The notes beneath the pieces were generated by a model. It was not told where the DNA came from and made no database searches. It was given only the letters and a program-made list of their open reading frames with translations. 64,000 bases of DNA from Bradyrhizobium sp. CB3481 (lineage in GTDB: Bacteria > Pseudomonadota > Alphaproteobacteria > Rhizobiales > Xanthobacteraceae): positions 3,430,501 to 3,494,500 of the forward strand of contig NZ_CP121647.1 of the NCBI RefSeq assembly GCF_029714305.1, written 5' to 3'. This document shows, piece after piece, positions 36,766 to 45,278 of the stretch. How positions within the stretch are numbered: the first letter of the stretch is position 1; each line of letters opens with the position of its first letter. The translations under genes and the position numbers were made by a program.

Positions 36766-36837
36766 CCCTGCGCGCCAGAACTTCGCGCGCCACCCCGGAA
36801 AATCTGACCCGCGCCTTTGAACCTTGCCGGTTGAGCA

Positions 36838-36862
36838 GGAACTAATCTCTATATCGCCCGTT
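36838..36862 (+). promoter_or_regulatory. EcfG-type promoter, exact GGAAC-N16-CGTT
   Basis: GGAAC at 36838-36842, sixteen bases, CGTT at 36859-36862. This is the consensus of the alphaproteobacterial general-stress sigma factor EcfG (RpoE2/SigT). It is 46 bases before the ATG at 36908, a normal distance. Confidence 0.65.
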
Positions 36863-36907
36863 GGGGCGGTTGAACCGCGCGTGGCTCGCGCGGGGGGAGC
36901 GAGACCA

Positions 36908-37384
36908 ATGCCCATTGCCCGTTATTTCCTGTTTGTCGGCGGCGTGCTGCTCGCCTTGCTGGTGGCGATCGACGCGCTATTCCCGCAACAGCAGCCGGCG
37001 GTGGTCAGCCAGGCCGTCCCCTCCATCGACAAGACCGTCGTGCGTATCCGCTCGGACCAGAAGCTGCCGGAGCGCGTGGTCTATGACACCAGCCTTCCGA
37101 CCATTGTCCCACCGGTGGTGACGGCGAAGGCCGCCACACCGCCCGCGCCGGCCGCTACCCCTGTCGCGGTCGATGTCCCGGCCCAGGCCCGGATGAGGGA
37201 GACATTTGCCCAACTCGTCCCGGAAGCAAAGAAGCCCGAGCCGCAGGTCCAACAGCGCAAGCGCAAGGTGGCCAGAGTTCGTCAAGCGCCGATGCAGTTC
37301 GCGCAACCGCCGCAAATGCGGGTCGCGCAGCAGTCGCATTTCGGCTTCTTCGGTGGTGGTCCGAGCTGGAATTCCACCTGGTAG
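36908..37384 (+). CDS. Single-pass membrane protein, predicted general-stress gene
   Basis: 158 aa with an N-terminal membrane segment (ARYFLFVGGVLLALLVAIDA). The following part is Pro/Val/Ala-rich (PTIVPPVVTAKAATPPAPAA), then a Lys/Gln-rich helical stretch (KKPEPQVQQRKRKVARVRQA) and a short FGFFGGGPSWNSTW tail. I do not recognise the domain; the layout suggests an inner-membrane anchored envelope protein. GGGGGAGCGAG precedes the ATG. Its promoter matches the EcfG consensus exactly, so induction under general stress is inferred. Confidence 0.78.
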   Translation: MPIARYFLFVGGVLLALLVAIDALFPQQQPAVVSQAVPSIDKTVVRIRSDQKLPERVVYDTSLPTIVPPVVTAKAATPPAPAATPVAVDVPAQARMRETFAQLVPEAKKPEPQVQQRKRKVARVRQAPMQFAQPPQMRVAQQSHFGFFGGGPSWNSTW

Positions 37385-37389
37385 AGCAC

Positions 37390-37409
37390 GCCGCGCTGTT
37401 TAGCGCGGC
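37390..37409. terminator. Hairpin between convergent genes
   Basis: GCCGCGCT, a four-base loop and AGCGCGGC form an 8-bp stem that overlaps the stop codon of the minus-strand gene at 37400. There is no T run, so it is at best a weak bidirectional terminator. Confidence 0.5.
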
Positions 37410-37771
37410 AGCTTCGGTATCTTGTCCGCAAAACCATTGAAGCAGGTCAACCGCTCGTCCTCCTCCTTGACGTGGCGACAGTCGCTGATGCTTTTCGCCG
37501 CCGCCGCCTTCGCTTTGGGCTGTGGCGTGTAGACGGCGTCATAGCAATTCAGGCGTTCCTTGGTGCCATCGTCGATATCCTGGCAGGCCTGCAGTTTTTG
37601 GGCGGCCGAAAGAGGTTTGGCCGGAGCTTCCTTCTTGCCCGCTGCCGCCTTCTTGGATCCGACCTGAACCAGGGGCTTGCCGCCGACGGTGGGAGGTTCG
37701 GCGGGGGCCGCGGTTTGCGCAAAGGCTGCGGCAGGATACAGCACCGCAAGCGCCAGTATGATTTTTCTCAT
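37400..37771 (-). CDS. Small exported Cys-containing protein
   Basis: 123 aa with a Sec signal (MRKIILALAVLYPAAAFAQT). The mature N-terminal half is Ala/Lys/Pro-rich; the C-terminal half has evenly spaced Cys residues in LQACQDIDDGTKERLNCYDA and SISDCRHVKEEDERLTCFNG, i.e. two Cys-x10+-Cys pairs within helical segments. This resembles small periplasmic proteins with a helical hairpin held by disulfides. I do not recognise the family. No ribosome site is visible before the ATG at 37771. It is convergent with the EcfG-type gene. Confidence 0.78.
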   Translation of the reverse strand: MRKIILALAVLYPAAAFAQTAAPAEPPTVGGKPLVQVGSKKAAAGKKEAPAKPLSAAQKLQACQDIDDGTKERLNCYDAVYTPQPKAKAAAAKSISDCRHVKEEDERLTCFNGFADKIPKLPR

Positions 37772-37800
37772 TTGAAATGTCCGAATAGCCGTTAGCGACG

Positions 37801-37846
37801 CGCGCGCCTGGAGAGACCATCACTCCCGACCTCGGAATCGAAATCC
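37801..37846 (-). repeat. Decayed copy of the 3' half of tRNA-Arg(TCG); attachment-site remnant
   Basis: The 46 bases match the plus-strand image of tRNA-Arg positions 44094-44139: GCGC, GGAGAGA, ACTCCCGACC and TCGGAATCGAAATCC are identical and in order (about 36 of 44 positions, one base lost). Homology runs from the acceptor end to the anticodon arm and then stops, the boundary expected for integration at an anticodon site. Its orientation is direct relative to the tRNA 6.3 kb to the right. Confidence 0.75.
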
Positions 37847-38094
37847 CGCTCGGCGCCAGCGATCTCTAGCACCATCCCCGCGCGTCTGTCTAACCCGTTG
37901 ATTTAATGGCTTTTCGAATCCACCGGCGGCAGACCGTAGGCTGTCGGGGGATATTTTGTGACCTCTGGTCGTGGGGATTTGACAGCCTGCCCCCGGCGGA
38001 GAGGCATCCGCCGGCATCAAACTTGTGCTCTATTGGACCGGCCTCGGCGTGCTCCTGAAGGCCGCCGGAGGTATTTGGTCCCAGGGAGTGCACC
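37847..38094. other. Intergenic region, left edge of the tRNA-bounded segment
   Basis: About 250 bases between the tRNA remnant and the oxalate decarboxylase start. I see no gene; GGGAGTG just before 38095 is the ribosome site of the next gene. No clear promoter or palindrome. Confidence 0.4.
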
Positions 38095-39267
38095 ATGTCC
38101 GATCAGCAACGCCGCGCGTTTCTCGCCGCCGCAGGCATCGCCTCGCTGGCGGCGCTGGGCGCGGCCCGGTCGGCCGCCGCGGGCGATCCAAGCTTCATGA
38201 ATAACGTTCCGGACCCGACGCTGGCGGGCAAGGATCTGCCGACCTTCAAATTCGCGCTCGAGAAGTCCGACGGCAAGGTCATCGGCAACAGCTACGGCAA
38301 GGAGGCGACGGTGACGCAACTGCCGATCTCCAAGGGGATCGCGGGGGTTTCGATGCGGCTGGAGCCCGGCGCGATGCGCGAGCTGCACTGGCACGCCACC
38401 GCCGCCGAATGGGCATTCGTCCTCGAGGGGCGGGTCCGCACCACCGTCGTCGATCCGAGCGGCCTTGCCGAGACCAACGATTTCGACCCCGGCGACGTCT
38501 GGTACTTTCCGCGCGGCCACGGCCACATGCTGCAATGCCTTGATGACAGGCCCTGTCACTTCATCCTGATTTTCGACAACGGCTATTTCTCCGAGTTCGG
38601 CACCTTCAGCATCACCGACTGGGTCGGACACACGCCACCGGCGCTGCTGGCCAAGAATTTCGGCCTGCCCGAGGCGACGTTTGCCAATTTCCCAAAGGCA
38701 GAGGTGTATTTCGCGCGCGGCAAGCCGCCGCCGGCAGCGCCTTCTGCGCCGTTGCAAGGCTGGAAGCTGCCGCCCGAGACCCACAAATACCGGCTGCTGG
38801 CACAGCCGCCGCACGCTACCTATCCGGGCGGCCGCGAGTGGCGCGTCGATTCCAGCCGCTTCCCGATCGCGAAGACGATCACGGGCGTCATCCTCGATCT
38901 CGATCCCGGTGCGCTGAGAACGCTGCACTGGCATCCGAACGCCGACGAATGGCAATACGTGATTGATGGTGAGGTGAGTGTCACTCTGTTCGGCTCGCAC
39001 GGACGCTTCCGGACCGAGCGATTGGAGAAGGGCGATGTCGGCTACATCCCGCAGGGCTATGGTCATTCGATCGAGAATGTCGGCAGCCGCGTCGCGCGGA
39101 TTTTGATCGGATTCAACGCCGGGATCTATGAGACCATCGACCTGTCGCAATGGATCGCGGCAAATCCGAAGGATGTGCTCGCAACGAATTTCGGCCAGCC
39201 GGCCGAACTGTTCGGGAAATTTCCCGACCGCGACGTGTTCATAGCGGCAAAAGACGGGAGCAGGTAG
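38095..39267 (+). CDS. Bicupin oxalate decarboxylase-type protein, exported
   Basis: 390 aa. The N-terminus (QQRRAFLAAAGIASLAALGA, then ARSAAAG) is a Tat-type signal. Two cupin domains each carry a full metal set: ELHWHATAAEW with GHGHM in the first half, TLHWHPNADEW with GYGHS in the second (His-x-His, Glu, later His). This is the layout of oxalate decarboxylase, a manganese enzyme that turns oxalate into formate and CO2; the Tat signal places it in the periplasm, where it may consume plant or fungal oxalate. The active-site lid that separates oxidase from decarboxylase was not checked, so an oxidase-like role remains possible. GGGAGTG precedes. Confidence 0.9.
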   Translation: MSDQQRRAFLAAAGIASLAALGAARSAAAGDPSFMNNVPDPTLAGKDLPTFKFALEKSDGKVIGNSYGKEATVTQLPISKGIAGVSMRLEPGAMRELHWHATAAEWAFVLEGRVRTTVVDPSGLAETNDFDPGDVWYFPRGHGHMLQCLDDRPCHFILIFDNGYFSEFGTFSITDWVGHTPPALLAKNFGLPEATFANFPKAEVYFARGKPPPAAPSAPLQGWKLPPETHKYRLLAQPPHATYPGGREWRVDSSRFPIAKTITGVILDLDPGALRTLHWHPNADEWQYVIDGEVSVTLFGSHGRFRTERLEKGDVGYIPQGYGHSIENVGSRVARILIGFNAGIYETIDLSQWIAANPKDVLATNFGQPAELFGKFPDRDVFIAAKDGSR

Positions 39268-39275
39268 GGAAAGAG

Positions 39276-39318
39276 CGCTGAACGCTTCCGGAGGAGATGA
39301 CCGCTCTCGCGTTCAGCG
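39276..39318. terminator. Shared hairpin between convergent genes
   Basis: CGCTGAACGC and GCGTTCAGCG form a perfect 10-bp stem with a 23-base loop, 9 bases after the oxalate decarboxylase stop and 23 bases after the stop of the minus-strand microprotein. It probably acts as a transcription barrier for both; the loop is large and lacks a T run. Confidence 0.55.
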
Positions 39319-39341
39319 TATCTACAAGTGCGATGACGGAT

Positions 39342-39428
39342 TTAACGCAGCCGATAAGCGTCAAATGCGTGAGCCAGGAATACACCGATGCTCACGAAGA
39401 CGAGGACTGCTGTTACGACTTCTGTCAT
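39342..39428 (-). CDS. 28-aa single-pass membrane microprotein
   Basis: Twenty-eight codons, ATG to TAA. The protein starts MTEVVTAVLVFVSIGVFLAH and ends AFDAYRLR. Residues 4-20 are a strongly hydrophobic helix; the end is basic (Arg, Leu, Arg), so a membrane-spanning microprotein with a cytoplasmic basic tail is predicted. An excellent ribosome site, GGGAGGAAGG, lies just upstream on the minus strand. I recall similar 'MTEVVTAVLVFVS' microproteins in Bradyrhizobium, but this is recollection and unverified. It is convergent with the oxalate decarboxylase gene. Function unknown; perhaps a small subunit of a membrane enzyme or a stress microprotein. Confidence 0.72.
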   Translation of the reverse strand: MTEVVTAVLVFVSIGVFLAHAFDAYRLR

Positions 39429-39742
39429 AGCCTTCCTCCCTGCATTGTCATGCCGACAAGGGCACGCTTGAGGAATTCGCGGTAAATGAGGTTCAGGACC
39501 GATACCAACATGATCTAACCCCGCTGTTCGACTGGCTGGACCGTAGCGGCCCTTTGTTTCGGGAGCGTTTCGCGGCGCGGGAGAATGGTTTCGTCGCGCG
39601 CCCGGGCGATCACAGAATCGCGACGGAACCGGAACGATCGATTCCTGTGAAGGATCTGGCTGTTACCCGCCCTTTTCTCGCCATGGTAATTCAGGAGACG
39701 TGCGGGGCCGGTGCTCAGGGGCGGGTTCCCAAAAGGTCCTAC

Positions 39743-40750
39743 GTGATCGTCCGACAATTGCAGCAACACGAGACTTCTGCGTCCCGCCGTACATTCCTGC
39801 GCGGGGTGGTTTCCTCGGCCAGCGTGCTTGCGCTCGGCGGATGCACCAGCATGGCCGCGACCGGCGCGCGTTACGACGCCGCGTCGCTCTCGGCGGAGCC
39901 GACATTGCTCGTCGCGACCACGCGCAAGCCGGTGAACGGCGGGCGCACGAAGCCGTGGTTCGGGCCGGAGCGCGCGACAAGGATGACCGTCGCCCGCGCG
40001 AAGCTGGTGCCGCCCGACGAGAGCCGTTTCTCACTCGCCGCGGCCGGTCTCGGCGACTGGCGCCTAGATGCAATCGAGCCTGCCGGCGACATCAGCGATC
40101 TCCTGACCGGTGGCGACGTTCTGATCTACGTGCACGGTTTCAAGCAGACATTCGAGACCGCAGCGCTCGATGCCGCGCATCTTGCCGACGGCATCAAATT
40201 CCGCGGCCAGACCATGGCATTCTCCTGGCCGTCAAAGGCGGGGCTGTTCGATTATGCCTATGATCGCGACAGTGCGATGTGGTCCCGCGACGATTTCGAG
40301 CGCGTGCTCAATTCCGTGGTCACGAGCCCGAGCGCCGGACGCGTTCACATCGTCGCGCACAGCATGGGCACCATGCTCACGCTTGAGAGCCTGCGACAGC
40401 TCTATGCGCGACATGGCGATACCGTTTCGGACAGGATTGGCGCCGTGGTGTTCGCCTCGCCGGATATCGACATGGACGTATTCTCGTCTTCGGTTACCCG
40501 CATGGGGCCGCTCGGCCGCAAGATCACCGTCGTTGCCGCGACCAACGACCGCGCGCTGGCGCTGTCGGGGCGGCTGGCCGGCGGGATGACGCGGGTCGGC
40601 GCCGCCGAGAAGGCCGCCATCGAGCGGCTCGGGGTGCGCGTCATCGATGCATCCGATGCCGGGTGGGGCATCATCAACCACGATCTGTTCCTGTCCAACG
40701 CCGAGGTGCGGCGGGTGATACGCCGCTCGATTGATACGTCGGCGGCGTAA
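39743..40750 (+). CDS. Tat-type lipoprotein alpha/beta-hydrolase (DUF900)
   Basis: 335 aa from GTG at 39743, preceded by AAAAGG. The leader has Arg-Arg and a hydrophobic core ending in a lipobox (SRRTFLRGVVSSASVLALGG then C), consistent with a Tat-exported lipoprotein. The hydrolase fold shows the oxyanion strand LIYVHGFKQTFETAALDAAH, the nucleophile elbow VHIVAHSMGTMLTLESLRQL (Ser in HSMGT), and a later acid strand KITVVAATNDRALALSGRLA; a His in GWGIINHDLF may complete the triad. The family (DUF900) is uncharacterised esterase/lipase-like proteins. An upstream ATG at 39554 lacks support. Confidence 0.83.
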   Translation: MIVRQLQQHETSASRRTFLRGVVSSASVLALGGCTSMAATGARYDAASLSAEPTLLVATTRKPVNGGRTKPWFGPERATRMTVARAKLVPPDESRFSLAAAGLGDWRLDAIEPAGDISDLLTGGDVLIYVHGFKQTFETAALDAAHLADGIKFRGQTMAFSWPSKAGLFDYAYDRDSAMWSRDDFERVLNSVVTSPSAGRVHIVAHSMGTMLTLESLRQLYARHGDTVSDRIGAVVFASPDIDMDVFSSSVTRMGPLGRKITVVAATNDRALALSGRLAGGMTRVGAAEKAAIERLGVRVIDASDAGWGIINHDLFLSNAEVRRVIRRSIDTSAA

Positions 40751-41075
40751 GTCCAGGTCCACTCATATCTGTGGCGCTGTGAAGGGCCACAACTCAAGCT
40801 AGAAGGCAACATGATCGCGACAGCCTGTTGCCATCGAGTGGCCGCCGCAACGTCACGTCGTCGTCACCCTTAATCTCGCCAAATTGAAGGAACATTTGTT
40901 CGTCGCCGGCACGATGGTGCCCAGTCTCGCCTTGAATCGCTAACGCTCGAACCACACAACGATAACAACGCCGACCGGTTGTCGGCGCGTGATGCTGTGC
41001 GCGTTCGACCAGGGCGATATGGGCGCCTGCCGGCGATCCTAATTGTTCGGTTGTTACAGGGGAGTTATAAAAATC
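40751..41075. other. Intergenic region, 325 bases
   Basis: No gene found. A short hairpin CGCCGAC / GTCGGCG (40969-40987, 5-base loop) sits 90 bases before the next start. GGGGAGTTATAAAAATC gives the ribosome site for 41076. No known promoter consensus. Confidence 0.4.
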
Positions 41076-41396
41076 ATGCGTCAAACAACATCGAAGGTCG
41101 GGGCACTTGTGGCGGGTATCGCAGGTCTCACGCTGCTCGCGGGCGTTACCGCGGCCAACGCACAGAGCACTGGCATCGCCGCTTGCGACGAATTCCTGAC
41201 CAAGTACGACGCTTGCGTCGGCTCCAAGGTCCCCGAGGCGCAGCGCGCGACGTTCAAGACCCAGATCGACCAGACGCGCAAGGTGTGGGTCGACATGGCC
41301 AAGAACCCGTCGACCAAGGCGACGATGGAAGCGACCTGCAAGCAGACGATGGATGCGACGAAGGCTTCGCTCACCGCGTATGGCTGCTCGTTCTGA
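41076..41396 (+). CDS. Small exported helical protein with two Cys pairs
   Basis: 106 aa with a signal peptide (VGALVAGIAGLTLLAGVTAA, then NAQS). The mature part has four Cys (AACDEFLTKYDACV, ATCKQTMDATKASLTAYGCS), each pair 7-19 residues apart, in amphipathic helices, suggesting a small disulfide-bonded helical bundle in the periplasm. I do not recognise a family. GGGGAG precedes the ATG. A hairpin (41417-41449) after the stop probably ends the transcript. Confidence 0.78.
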   Translation: MRQTTSKVGALVAGIAGLTLLAGVTAANAQSTGIAACDEFLTKYDACVGSKVPEAQRATFKTQIDQTRKVWVDMAKNPSTKATMEATCKQTMDATKASLTAYGCSF

Positions 41397-41416
41397 TCGG
41401 CACTTGCTCTGCTGAA

Positions 41417-41449
41417 AAGGAGCGGCCCCCCAAGTGAAAGCCGCTCCTT
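41417..41449 (+). terminator. Hairpin after the small exported gene
   Basis: AAGGAGCGGC and GCCGCTCCTT form a 10-bp perfect stem with a 13-base loop, 20 bases after the stop at 41396. Only CTTGAC follows, so there is no real T run; it may be a moderate terminator. Confidence 0.5.
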
Positions 41450-41596
41450 GACGGCGATGCGAGGACGGGCGACCCGGCGCGATGTTGGCCGCGCCGGGGC
41501 TTCCGGACCGCCGATCGAAACGGCATCTCCAGCGCATGCGCACGGTCCACGATGAGGCGAGCGTCCGTCCGGACGCCGTCGACGAACCTCCCGGCA

Positions 41597-41612
41597 TTAA
41601 CCTCTTGTTAAC
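41597..41612 (+). promoter_or_regulatory. Predicted CtrA-binding site (TTAA-N7-TTAAC)
   Basis: TTAA, seven bases (CCTCTTG), TTAAC: a perfect full CtrA box about 120 bases before the 38-aa membrane microprotein at 41733. The flanking block TTGTTAACCATAACG is identical to that around the box at 3740, hinting at a common origin or tight constraint. Confidence 0.65.
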
Positions 41613-41732
41613 CATAACGCCCCACCATTGCCTCTCCGTAGAGAGTCGCCACGGACCCTCGTCCTAAGGCGCGAAATTGATCGTTCATCTTGGGGGCGGG
41701 CAAAAGCTCGTGGGGCTCCAAGGAGTAACGTC

Positions 41733-41849
41733 ATGTCATCCTCCGTACGAGATCACGTAAGCCTGCTTTCGGAATTCGTCCCTGCGATATTCGGTGCGCT
41801 CGCGTTGGGTGTCCCGATTGCAATCGCGATTATTTGGATTTGTTCGTGA
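41733..41849 (+). CDS. 38-aa single-pass membrane microprotein
   Basis: Thirty-eight aa, MSSSVRDHVSLLSEFVPAIF then GALALGVPIAIAIIWICS. The second half is a clear membrane helix; the first half is short and polar, likely cytoplasmic. AAGGAGTAACG is a strong ribosome site before the ATG at 41733. A perfect CtrA box lies about 120 bases upstream, so cell-cycle control is inferred. It is single, followed after 20 bases by a GNAT frame in the same direction. Function is unknown. Confidence 0.7.
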   Translation: MSSSVRDHVSLLSEFVPAIFGALALGVPIAIAIIWICS

Positions 41850-41868
41850 GGGGTGAAACGCCGGTCTC

Positions 41869-42477
41869 TTGGCCGGCCATCGAAGCTGTCTAGCCAGCAT
41901 CGACGAAGCTGGTCGCGCAGGGCTGCGACTGGCCACTGCGTCGTTACGATGCTACCGTCCGGGAGCCGGTCAACAGGGGGCTGAGTTGCTTCCAGACGTT
42001 CTCGACCTTCATGGCCATGATTTGCCACGTAGCGCATTGCTTCGTGTGAACAATGCCAGTGTCCGTGAGACTTCGTTGCTGACGGCGGAGCGGTTCGACC
42101 GAATGATCGGCGCCGCCGGCATCGCGACGTTCATCGAGCCCGGTCAGGCATTTCTTCTCGCATTTGAACAGGCGGACGATTACGACGGCATCCACTTCAA
42201 GTGGTTTCGGAGCCGTTATGGGCGGTTTCTGTACGTCGACCGCGTCGTCGTCGCCGAGGAGGAGCGGGGCCGGGGGCTGGGCCGGACATTGTACGCCGAC
42301 CTGTTCACGCGGGCCGGGCAGCTTGGCCACGATCGCATTGTCTGCGAGATCAACATGCAGCCGCCGAATCCCGGCTCGGACCGATTTCACGCGGCGCAAG
42401 GGTTTTGCGAAGTCGGCCGGGCAACGCTCGACGATGGAGCGAAGACCGTCCGCTACCTTCTCTGGTGTCGAAATTGA
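41869..42477 (+). CDS. GNAT-family N-acetyltransferase, start uncertain
   Basis: The convincing part begins near the TTG at 41986 (LLPDVLDLHGHDLPRSALLR); upstream frame to 41869 is weaker, so the true length is 163-202 aa. The acetyl-CoA motif is VVVAEEERGRGLGRTLYADL (Arg-Gly-x-Gly-Leu-Gly-Arg). The N-terminal ALLRVNNASVRETSLLTAER and later GSDRFHAAQGFCEVGRATLD match a group of predicted acetyltransferases (COG3818-type). Its TGA overlaps the TTG start of the broken dapB (sharing TTGA), a coupled arrangement. The substrate is unknown. Confidence 0.8.
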   Translation: MAGHRSCLASIDEAGRAGLRLATASLRCYRPGAGQQGAELLPDVLDLHGHDLPRSALLRVNNASVRETSLLTAERFDRMIGAAGIATFIEPGQAFLLAFEQADDYDGIHFKWFRSRYGRFLYVDRVVVAEEERGRGLGRTLYADLFTRAGQLGHDRIVCEINMQPPNPGSDRFHAAQGFCEVGRATLDDGAKTVRYLLWCRN

Positions 42478-43245
42478 CCGCGCCTTGCAAAATCGTGGTG
42501 GCCGGCGGGCATGGACATATGGGCCAGGCAGTCGTTTCCAACCTGCGCGATGAACCTGCCTTTCTTCACGTTGGCAATCTGGGGCGCTGCGGAAGCAGCG
42601 GCGACGGGGTTATCAACCTCGCCACCGCGCTTGATGTCGCGGATGTGATTATTGATTTTACGACGGGTGAGGCGGCAACCGCGTTATCGGAAGCATGCGC
42701 GGCAAGAGGCGGACCTGCGCTGGTGATCGGCGCCACGGGTTTTACGCCGGAGCAGCTCGGCCGAATCAGGAACGCGGCGCGCAGCATCGCGATTGTGCGT
42801 TCCGGCAACTTTTCGCTTGGCGTCAACATGCTGGTTGGCCTGGTCAGGCAGCGCAGGTCTTCCCGCGCGAGACATGGGACATCGAAATTTTCGAGGCCCA
42901 TCATCGCCGCAAGGTCGATGCGCCTTCCGGAACCGCATTGATGCTGGGCGAAGCCGCCGCGCAAGGCCGCGGCGTTTGCCTCGCTTCCGTGGAGCGGCGC
43001 GGCCGGGATGGCGTCAGTGGTGAGCGCCCGATGGGCGAGATCGGCTTTGCGGTCATGCGGGGCGGGGCATCGTCGGTGAGCACAGCGTTACGTTCGCCGC
43101 GGCCGACGAGGTTGTGACCCTTTCACATCAGGCGCTCGATCGCAGCATGTTCGCGCACGGCGCGCTGGCGGCCGCGCGCTGGCTGATCGGGCGTGCGCCG
43201 GGTGAGTATGACATGCAGGATGTGCTGGGCTTGAAGCGTTACTAA
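42474..43245 (+). pseudogene. dapB: dapB-like gene (dihydrodipicolinate reductase family) with two frameshifts
   Basis: Starts with TTG overlapping the GNAT stop. The first frame gives CKIVVAGGHGHMGQAVVSNL (dinucleotide site) to [14 protein letters not shown]; near 42841-42853 one base is lost, and the next frame gives [20 protein letters not shown] (catalytic His, Lys and DAPSGTA motif). A second loss in a G run near 43062-43068 shifts again to [20 protein letters not shown] and QDVLGLKRY. Each shift is net minus one. Joined it would be about 257 aa, slightly short of the usual 270, with a shortened N-terminal domain. It is a pseudogene or a sequencing artefact in the assembly. Confidence 0.85.
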
Positions 43246-43955
43246 AGAAAGCGGGGGGCCACCTCAAAGAGAAACGCGCGGGCTTCTTCCAATTCAGCGG
43301 GGGGAATCGGAACCGGATACTTTTCCGGATCGGGGGCGTGCCGGTAGCAGTTCGCGGTACGAAACATCAGCCGCCAATACGTCCAATCTGGCCCCAGAGA
43401 GGCCTTTAACGCACTTTCTCCACCGGCCAACCTCCGCACCAGTTCCGCCGACCTGAAAATATCGTGCCAATTGTCTGCCCGCGTCAGATGCGAGAACAGC
43501 GCGGCACGCTTGTCGTCAGCATCGGCTTCCCGTAGCCAGCGCTGTACGGACGACTCCGATGCGGTTGGTGTTGCGGAGATAGCCGCCGGCGTTCGATCTC
43601 GTGTTCTTTCCAGGTTCAAGGTGAGCTTGGCAGAAGCAGCGGAAAGAATAGGTATGCGCTTCCCTGCGGCATCGAATTTCAAGACAAGACCAATGCCGAG
43701 CGGCCTGGCGTCCCTGTGGATGAGAATAGCTGCCCCGTTCAGACGCTCAACGATCCGCCTGGCATCGCGCGTAACATCTGCCGCCTTGATGATCGATGCC
43801 CATGCCTTGGTCCGAAGCAGCGAAACAACTACGCCGTCGCCGGCCAGATAGTCCTCGATCCAAGGGTCGAATGGCGGTCGAAGAACTTCGCGGGCATCGT
43901 CGATGTCAATCGTTTCGCCTTTGAGCTCGATCGCCCATCCTTCCGCGTTCTTCAT
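43242..43955 (-). CDS. Hypothetical protein next to tRNA-Arg
   Basis: 237 aa from the ATG at 43955, preceded by GGGGGG. It is cytoplasmic, with no signal or membrane segment. The N-terminal part ([20 protein letters not shown]) is mixed alpha/beta; the C-terminal part contains [20 protein letters not shown], a conserved-looking Trp/Tyr/Cys patch, and a Pro-rich [21 protein letters not shown] do not recognise it. It overlaps the end of the broken dapB by four bases, convergently, and lies 137 bases from the tRNA, the place where island genes are often found; it could be a remnant of such an element. Confidence 0.75.
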
Positions 43956-44091
43956 TGCAGCCCCCCACTGTACTGGCATGTCCGCACCGGTCGTCGACTC
44001 GGTCGAGCAACGTCAACAGCGTACAAGGTGCACGCAATTTCGGGTCTAAATTGGAATGAGAGGGAGGGATTGTCTGCAAGCGGCGAGGAAA

Positions 44092-44168
44092 TGGCGCGCT
44101 CGGAGAGATTCGAACTCCCGACCCTCGGAATCGAAATCCGATGCTCTATCCAGCTGAGCTACGAGCGC
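44092..44168 (-). tRNA. tRNA-Arg, anticodon TCG
   Basis: 77 bases with encoded CCA. The acceptor GCGCTCG pairs with CGAGCGC; the D arm is GCTC ... GAGC; the anticodon stem TCGGA / TCCGA encloses loop TTTCGAT, giving TCG (reads CGA); the T arm is GGGAG-TTCGAAT-CTCTC (one G-U). The discriminator is G. It is the right boundary of the segment that has a decayed 3' half copy at 37801-37846. Confidence 0.95.
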
Positions 44169-44218
44169 CTCGCGCTGGCTCGTATCAGACTTGGTCTGAT
44201 AGAGCCAGCCGCTCGATC

Positions 44219-44476
44219 CTAGTAGCAGGGATGCCGGCGGCGGTCCTGGCCGATATAGGCGGCGGCGCTCTGACGGCACAGGACCGTCGAGGGACCATCG
44301 TAGTAGGCAAAGGTGCCGGGTTGCGGGCCGGGGCCGTAATTGTGGAGGAAGCTGATCGGGTAGGGCAGGCCCCAATTGTGAAGGTGGTACCGATTATGGC
44401 GGGCATCCGCCAGGGTGGGGGCCAGGACCGCGATCGAGAGGAGGGCCGTGGCAACGCAAAACTTCGTTTTGGTCAT
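44219..44476 (-). CDS. Small exported His/Tyr-rich protein
   Basis: 85 aa with a signal peptide (KFCVATALLSIAVLAPTLAD). The mature part is short and His/Tyr/Pro-rich (ARHNRYHLHNWGLPYPISFL then HNYGPGPQPGTFAYYDGPST), with two Cys near the end (LCRQSA ... RRHPCY) that may form a disulfide. It resembles small periplasmic or surface proteins common in Bradyrhizobium; no function can be given. GGAG precedes the ATG at 44476. It stands on the same strand as the tRNA, about 50 bases upstream of it. Confidence 0.78.
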   Translation of the reverse strand: MTKTKFCVATALLSIAVLAPTLADARHNRYHLHNWGLPYPISFLHNYGPGPQPGTFAYYDGPSTVLCRQSAAAYIGQDRRRHPCY

Positions 44477-44807
44477 TTCGATTCTCCGGAAGTCCCACTG
44501 GACGATCGCACTTTCGGGCGGGATGCCCGTTTGCGTGAAGAAAGTACGTCAAAACAACAAGATAGAGGCGTGGCCTCCGATTCGGTCGAAGCTGTTCCCT
44601 CTCATATTGTGCCTGATCCGGCCCCGTATTCTAGGAGAAGCGGGAGGAAAAGCTGCGGAAAAACCACCTTAACCCGCCCCTTTTTGGCCTCAAGGGATGC
44701 TTAACGAATTCCCAACACAGTCCGGCCAAACTTTTGCTGTCCGGTCCCTGAGCTAGCGGGCCGAGCTATCCCGAATGTGACGAGGCTACCCGGTTCCCGA
44801 TCGACCC
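44477..44807. other. Intergenic region, 331 bases
   Basis: No gene, repeat or clear hairpin seen. It is the shared upstream region of two divergent exported proteins (44476 minus, 44808 plus). A TTAAC half-site occurs near 44701 but without a partner at the CtrA spacing. Confidence 0.4.
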
Positions 44808-45254
44808 ATGCGCATCACGCCCCTTGCCTTGCTGTTCCTCTCGCTCGCGGTTGCGAGCCCGGCGCGCGCCGATCTGCACATCACGCGCGATCACGGCGGC
44901 TATGTCGAGGAATACAAGACCAAGTACAAGCGAATCCGCGACCGCAAGGAGCGGGTGATCATCGACGGCATCTGCAATTCGGCCTGCACGCTGGTGTTCG
45001 GCATCGTGCCGATGAACAAGATTTGCGTTACGCCGAAAGCGAGCCTCGGCTTCCACCAGGCCTATTACGACAAGGCCTTCACCTTCGGCATCAAGGTCAC
45101 GAGCCTGGAGGGGACGTCGGATCTGATGTCCTATTACCCCGATACGGTGAAGGACTGGATCCGCAGGAATGGCGGGCTCACCACCGAGATGAAGAAGATC
45201 AAGAACGGCACCGAGCTCTGGAAGATCGTCGATCCCTGCCCGGAAGAGTGGTGA
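44808..45254 (+). CDS. Exported ClpP/crotonase-fold-like protein
   Basis: 148 aa with a signal peptide (ITPLALLFLSLAVASPARAD). The segment RVIIDGICNSACTLVFGIVP then MNKICVTPKASLGFHQAYYD resembles the Ser-containing loop (NSAC) and following strand of ClpP/SppA-type peptidases, where a Ser after Asn and a later His (here in GFHQAYY) form the active site. The fold is small, missing the C-terminal part of real ClpP. From memory, such periplasmic mini-ClpP-like proteins are widespread in rhizobia, with unknown activity. No ribosome site is seen. Proteolysis is a possibility, not a conclusion. Confidence 0.75.
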   Translation: MRITPLALLFLSLAVASPARADLHITRDHGGYVEEYKTKYKRIRDRKERVIIDGICNSACTLVFGIVPMNKICVTPKASLGFHQAYYDKAFTFGIKVTSLEGTSDLMSYYPDTVKDWIRRNGGLTTEMKKIKNGTELWKIVDPCPEEW

Positions 45255-45278
45255 GGCGCAGCGGGTTCTGCACCGGCG

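Follow-up and report, generated by a model that had tools for sequence, protein, structure and literature searches.

A clade-wide relic of a tRNA-gene island at tRNA-Arg(TCG) in Bradyrhizobium sp. CB3481, retained without its integrase

The signature of islands in tRNA genes is defined in the Islander paper, whose accessible sections place anticodon-centred sites and 3′ tRNA fragments among the common types and describe the rejection of candidates that lack an integrase (PMC4383910). In Bradyrhizobium, symbiosis integrative and conjugative elements (ICEs) use several tRNAs, and strain NK6 is reported to have a bipartite element at a tRNA-Arg, with no statement of which tRNA-Arg in the accessible parts of that source (PMC9174649). 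Here we describe a segment of Bradyrhizobium sp. CB3481 that is bounded by an intact tRNA-Arg(TCG) and a decayed copy of its 3′ half; it lies in a 64,000-nucleotide stretch (the window, to whose positions all coordinates refer; 3430501–3494500 of contig C1) of an 8,035,627-bp single-contig genome. As far as the accessible Islander text goes (PMC4383910), the segment resembles the islands collected there in having a restored intact tRNA, a 3′ fragment downstream in the same orientation, a breakpoint in the anticodon stem, and a length of ~6.2 kb that falls within the limits of 2–200 kb. It differs from them in that no integrase lies inside or overlaps it, the scar is decayed and found clade-wide, and purifying selection acts on part of the cargo; having no integrase, it would be rejected by Islander's integrase filter. 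With the symbiosis ICEs it shares attachment at a tRNA, and unlike it these are described, in the parts of the source available (PMC9174649), as hundreds of kilobases long and carrying symbiosis genes. The segment is a relic of a known kind of structure, old and clade-wide, and it is very probably best explained by integrase-mediated insertion of an island in tRNA-Arg(TCG), followed by loss of the integrase and partial retention of the cargo.

ARAGORN finds a single tRNA in the window, the intact tRNA-Arg(tcg) at 44092–44168 on the minus strand. When positions 44041–44200 are compared with the whole window by BLASTN, the top non-self match is a minus-strand copy at 37802–37846 (46 columns, 82.6% identity, E=3.5e-7), and the second best, at only E=0.027, is an inverted repeat adjoining the tRNA (44184–44209). 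A separate local-alignment scan gives the copy, hereafter the scar, a score of 29, against 13–16 for the top match in each of six shuffled loci, and finds no further scar above background within the segment. The scar ends at 37846, which corresponds to tRNA base 44139 in the 5′ strand of the anticodon stem, and its sequence changes fall mostly in the T arm and the acceptor. Since the 3′ ends of tRNA and scar both lie toward low coordinates, the scar is downstream of the tRNA and oriented like it, the arrangement expected of a displaced 3′ fragment; the spacing between them is ~6.2 kb. A directly oriented 3′-half copy ending in the anticodon arm had been proposed in an earlier note made from the sequence alone, and both parts of that proposal hold. 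The inverted repeat beside the tRNA, of the GCTGGCTC.TATCAGAC type, occupies 44174–44209, immediately upstream of the gene.

Related loci, 45 of them named, were obtained by scanning genome contigs with the left flank protein. Four (L087, L091, L097 and L104) lack the segment and have both flanks joined by one intact tRNA, which occupies the exact place of the scar, ~50 bp from the gene at 37400–37771 (gene 37400), with the right flank (window 44083–45258) directly adjoining. These are the uninterrupted sites that the earlier note had suggested looking for, and they support its reading of the copy as an integration scar. A would-be fifth, L090, has the same tRNA near gene 37400, but its contig stops there. 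The decayed scar replaces the tRNA in 14 loci (L069–L075 and L077–L083), and breakpoint and adjoining arm are the same throughout the clade alignments. Where both ends are on the locus, tRNA and scar are ~3.0 kb (L070) to 9.2 kb (L080) apart, and in the closed genome G019 ~17.5 kb. In L076 and L085 the arm is strong (43–48 of 70) and the scar nearly lost (15–17), and in L084 and L086 the scars are nearly perfect, with none of the window's cargo detected in the available DNA.

A tree built from the flanks (1,625 columns, 37 rows) places the window and the 14 scar loci in one clade with 100/100 support. The empty and fresh-island loci sit in a neighbouring group of eight (support 81/85), as does L102, which has a DUF900 gene at the site, no arm, and no visible scar beside gene 37400. 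B. hereditatis (L070) is nearest to the window in this tree, and the accessible text of PMC11837538 gives B. hereditatis WSM 1738 as the nearest type strain of CB3481. Because the scar is common to the whole clade the insertion is old, and the simplest history is a single event, at the latest before the clade radiated and possibly earlier.

As the earlier note had said, the segment is free of an integrase: none of the 16 Phage_integrase matches in the strain's own genome lies in the window, and tblastn with three integrase queries gives no match to the window (E up to 10) or to the clade loci (E up to 0.01). The same tRNA carries fresh scars with the same breakpoint in G012, L084, G126, G255 and G033, all five of which have Pfam-confirmed tyrosine integrases 59–238 bp away. 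These elements share tRNA and breakpoint with the segment, and the G255 arm resembles positions 37847–37915; they differ in having kept the integrase and in their nearly perfect scars, with 47–49 matching bases. A search for exact fresh scars followed by a base other than G finds them in 4 of 265 genus genomes; mismatched or G-followed scars are missed by it. The G255-type integrase, which has an Arm-DNA-bind_3 domain, is present in 7 of 257 genus genomes and has no match in the strain's own genome at E 1e-60. Comparison of 11 window proteins with the fetched stretches of G255 and G126 gives no match except the host flank protein at 36824–37384, found in G255. With integrases of more than one type at one breakpoint, tRNA-Arg(TCG) is a recurrent target in Bradyrhizobium.

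The fresh scars also bear on whether a mobile element was involved at all. A tRNA pseudogene arising by segmental duplication or gene conversion would account for a segment in which no integrase or other mobility gene is recognised, and tRNA copies can decay. Such an origin is most improbable, as the copy ends at the same base as the fresh scars with adjoining integrases, the clade alignment contains no tRNA 5′ half past the breakpoint, and in the empty sites the tRNA has exactly the position of the scar.

Several further tRNA-Arg copies were encountered among these loci. The G033 scar is flanked by a tyrosine integrase on both sides (L064:3359-6387), suggesting tandem elements. In G018 the distance from tRNA to scar is 32 kb, among the matches listed, and an open reading frame (ORF) beside its tRNA (L054:4001-5491) looks integrase-like by eye and has no Pfam match. 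At L074:1941-1965 and L107:2056-2078 only the tRNA 3′ end is copied, perfectly over 25 and 23 bases respectively; these copies are probably scars of elements with a crossover nearer the T arm. Partial copies of other extents are present at L106:4947-5012 and, for the 5′ half, at L102:2683-2717, and a tRNA fragment is also found in L110.

The contents of the segment are layered, with kept genes, a decayed bicupin gene and a strain-specific right third (41850–44091). An oxalate decarboxylase-family bicupin at 38095–39267 on the plus strand (TIGR03404, 341 bits) is complete in the window, in L069, L071, L081 and L082, and in G019, and is a remnant or missing in the other scar loci. It is followed by a 28-aa microprotein (39342–39428, minus), a DUF900 alpha/beta hydrolase that is the longest ORF of the segment (39554–40750, plus; PF05990; conserved core from ~39731), a 106-aa protein (41076–41396, plus) and a 38-aa microprotein (41733–41849, plus). 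Within the clade and its kin, the 106-aa protein and each of the microproteins are found in 16 further loci; neither microprotein has a Pfam or NCBIfam match. The DUF900 core is stop-free in every locus where it is detected, and was not found in L073, L076 and L079. Distant relatives of the 28-aa microprotein lie near the tRNA in L092 and at a similar place in L096.

Median ratios of nonsynonymous to synonymous substitution rates (dN/dS) against the window are 0.08 for the bicupin (4 loci), 0.14 for the DUF900 core (15 loci), 0.20 for the 106-aa protein (16 loci), and 0.05 and 0.11 for the 28-aa and 38-aa microproteins (16 loci each), compared with 0.12–0.20 for five flanking genes; loci spanning <60% of a gene were excluded for that gene, and L069/G024, L081/G001, L086/G012 and L090/G035 were treated as the same genomes and counted once. 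With dN/dS values of 0.05–0.20, the kept cargo genes are maintained under purifying selection. The description of the segment as an eroded island is thus apt for the bicupin gene, which is decayed or gone in most relatives, and does not fit the DUF900, 106-aa and microprotein genes kept under selection or the right third, which is a later, strain-specific layer. The earlier note would have abandoned its reading had the scar occurred where the enclosed genes are syntenic and ancestral; some of the genes are indeed syntenic with it, but the empty sites show that tRNA and flanks exist without the segment.

Directly inside the scar, on the element side, lies an arm (37847–37915, minus) whose conservation exceeds that of its surroundings. 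Mean pairwise identity over 15 rows is 0.89 for the arm, 0.47 and 0.37 for the next outward stretches, 0.83 for the scar and 0.74 for third codon positions of gene 37400. The regions upstream of g36166, g44808, the 106-aa protein and the microproteins show a similar conservation profile. The arm conservation counts omit L083, in which the match starts at residue 28 of gene 37400, and L076, and the identity and profile comparisons omit L085 as well. The cargo is not the reason for this conservation, because the arm remains conserved in loci with a decayed bicupin and is kept in L076 (arm 47–48, scar 15), a locus with none of the cargo found. RNA structure was considered as a cause and finds no support: in the consensus fold of 16 rows only 3 of the 39 pairs show any two-sided change, and the covariation term is -0.71.

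From these sequence patterns we tentatively propose that the element's arm and the discarded tRNA half may have been recruited by the host gene at 37400–37771 as its upstream regulatory region and leader, the insertion having severed this gene from the tRNA and the element's end having since been kept by selection. It is this possibly recycled attachment arm that makes the case interesting. In the empty-site strains gene 37400 lies ~50 bp after the tRNA on the same strand, and in L087 no terminator is detected between them, so that transcription of the gene may once have started at the tRNA promoter; the missing terminator fits ancestral read-through and is no proof of it. A sigma-70 pattern scan of 37600–38200 finds no site, which either counts against a promoter or reflects a limit of the pattern.

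That result also counts in favour of another reading, in which the arm is conserved as a still-working attachment or integrase-binding site and not for gene 37400. The resemblance to the G255 arm points the same way: the clade arm aligns, up to the junction, with the G255 arm between integrase and scar, at 0 of 500 shuffles in all four clade rows compared, and against genomic decoys seven rows give 0, 0, 0, 0, 0, 2 and 6 of 3000, the window's own row being the weakest and the clade rows being related, not independent tests. Exchange at the locus also continues, as the stretch beside the tRNA varies in length among relatives. A working site is nonetheless unlikely, since no similar integrase is found by tblastn in the clade loci, the arm has escaped the decay of the adjoining scar core, a contrast clearest in L076, and the conservation profile is like that upstream of other genes.

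Taken as an island insertion, the locus suggests the following course. No later than the ancestor of the B. jicamae/lablabi/retamae/hereditatis clade, a mobile element with a tyrosine integrase would have entered tRNA-Arg(TCG), the crossover falling in the region of the anticodon stem-loop. Because the element would have brought its own 3′ half along, the tRNA would have been restored at 44092–44168 and the old 3′ half displaced to the far end, at 37802–37846. The integrase would subsequently have been lost, probably leaving the remnant immobile; our best guess is that it was of the Arm-DNA-bind_3 type seen in G255. The left cargo would have been partly retained by selection, with the bicupin gene decaying or being lost in most relatives, and continuing turnover of the DNA adjoining the tRNA would have produced the strain-specific right third.

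Several findings weigh against this account or parts of it. The integrase itself is gone from the segment, and GC content, a comparison the earlier note had proposed, shows no contrast and gives no hint of foreign DNA, at 62.2% within the segment and 63.0% across the whole window. With regard to the arm, the integrases of G126 and G080 are the closest relatives of that of G255, yet the G126 arm, judged from L114, is a weak match (4–310 of 3000 decoys) and the G080 arm is unmatched (51–2602 of 3000 decoys); moreover, a 700-bp stretch by a distant integrase at another tRNA (L131) scores 22–22.5 with the arms, slightly more than its 200 shuffles. Finally, L093 and L102, which are outside the clade and arm-less, have DUF900 relatives between gene 37400 and the tRNA side, and in L093 a faint scar is seen (score 19).

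The L093 and L102 genes may mean that the insertion is older, or that DUF900 reached the site more than once. If the ancestor common to the jicamae and elkanii groups already had an occupied site, the empty strains would have lost the segment by exact excision; the faint scar of L093 would be a trace of that state, and the tRNA does lie ~5–8 kb or more from gene 37400 in the elkanii-type loci that show both. We regard this as unlikely. Neither L093 nor L102 has the arm, in the other elkanii-type loci examined no scar is visible, and because the site is re-used by several integrases, repeated insertion also explains the L093 and L102 pattern.

Islands in tRNA genes are commonly called through their integrase, and the segment shows what can outlast it, namely a shared scar and domesticated genes, with an attachment arm recycled as a regulatory region as a possible further remnant. 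How often islands become permanent host DNA would emerge from scar searches that do not depend on an integrase and use empty sites for confirmation. Among openly licensed PMC papers, searched by title or abstract start, we found no account of this site or of the recycling of such an arm.

The right third is a later layer than the kept genes, and among the clade loci DNA similarity to parts of it (41850–44091) is seen in L083 alone. It begins with a GNAT acetyltransferase ORF (41869–42477, plus; PF00583), partly common to L083 and left out of the earlier, otherwise correct gene list. Next is a broken dapB copy (42489–43069, plus) with PF01113 and PF05173 in separate ORFs in different frames; another dapB, open, is at C1:165482 of the same genome. 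Adjoining the tRNA 3′ end is a 245-aa orphan protein (43242–43979, minus), which a genus-wide search finds in 7 of 195 genomes including its own, the other copies being 30–33% identical.

Of the flanking genes, gene 37400 on the left (37400–37771, minus) encodes 123 aa with only a weak, sub-threshold VasI match, and the right flank gene (44219–44476, minus) lies directly after the tRNA in the empty-site strains. In 14 loci where gene 37400 was not found (L040, L041, L042, L046, L050, L051, L052, L056–L061 and L067), the same tRNA and flank genes are present with the tRNA reversed, its 3′ end toward the right flank.

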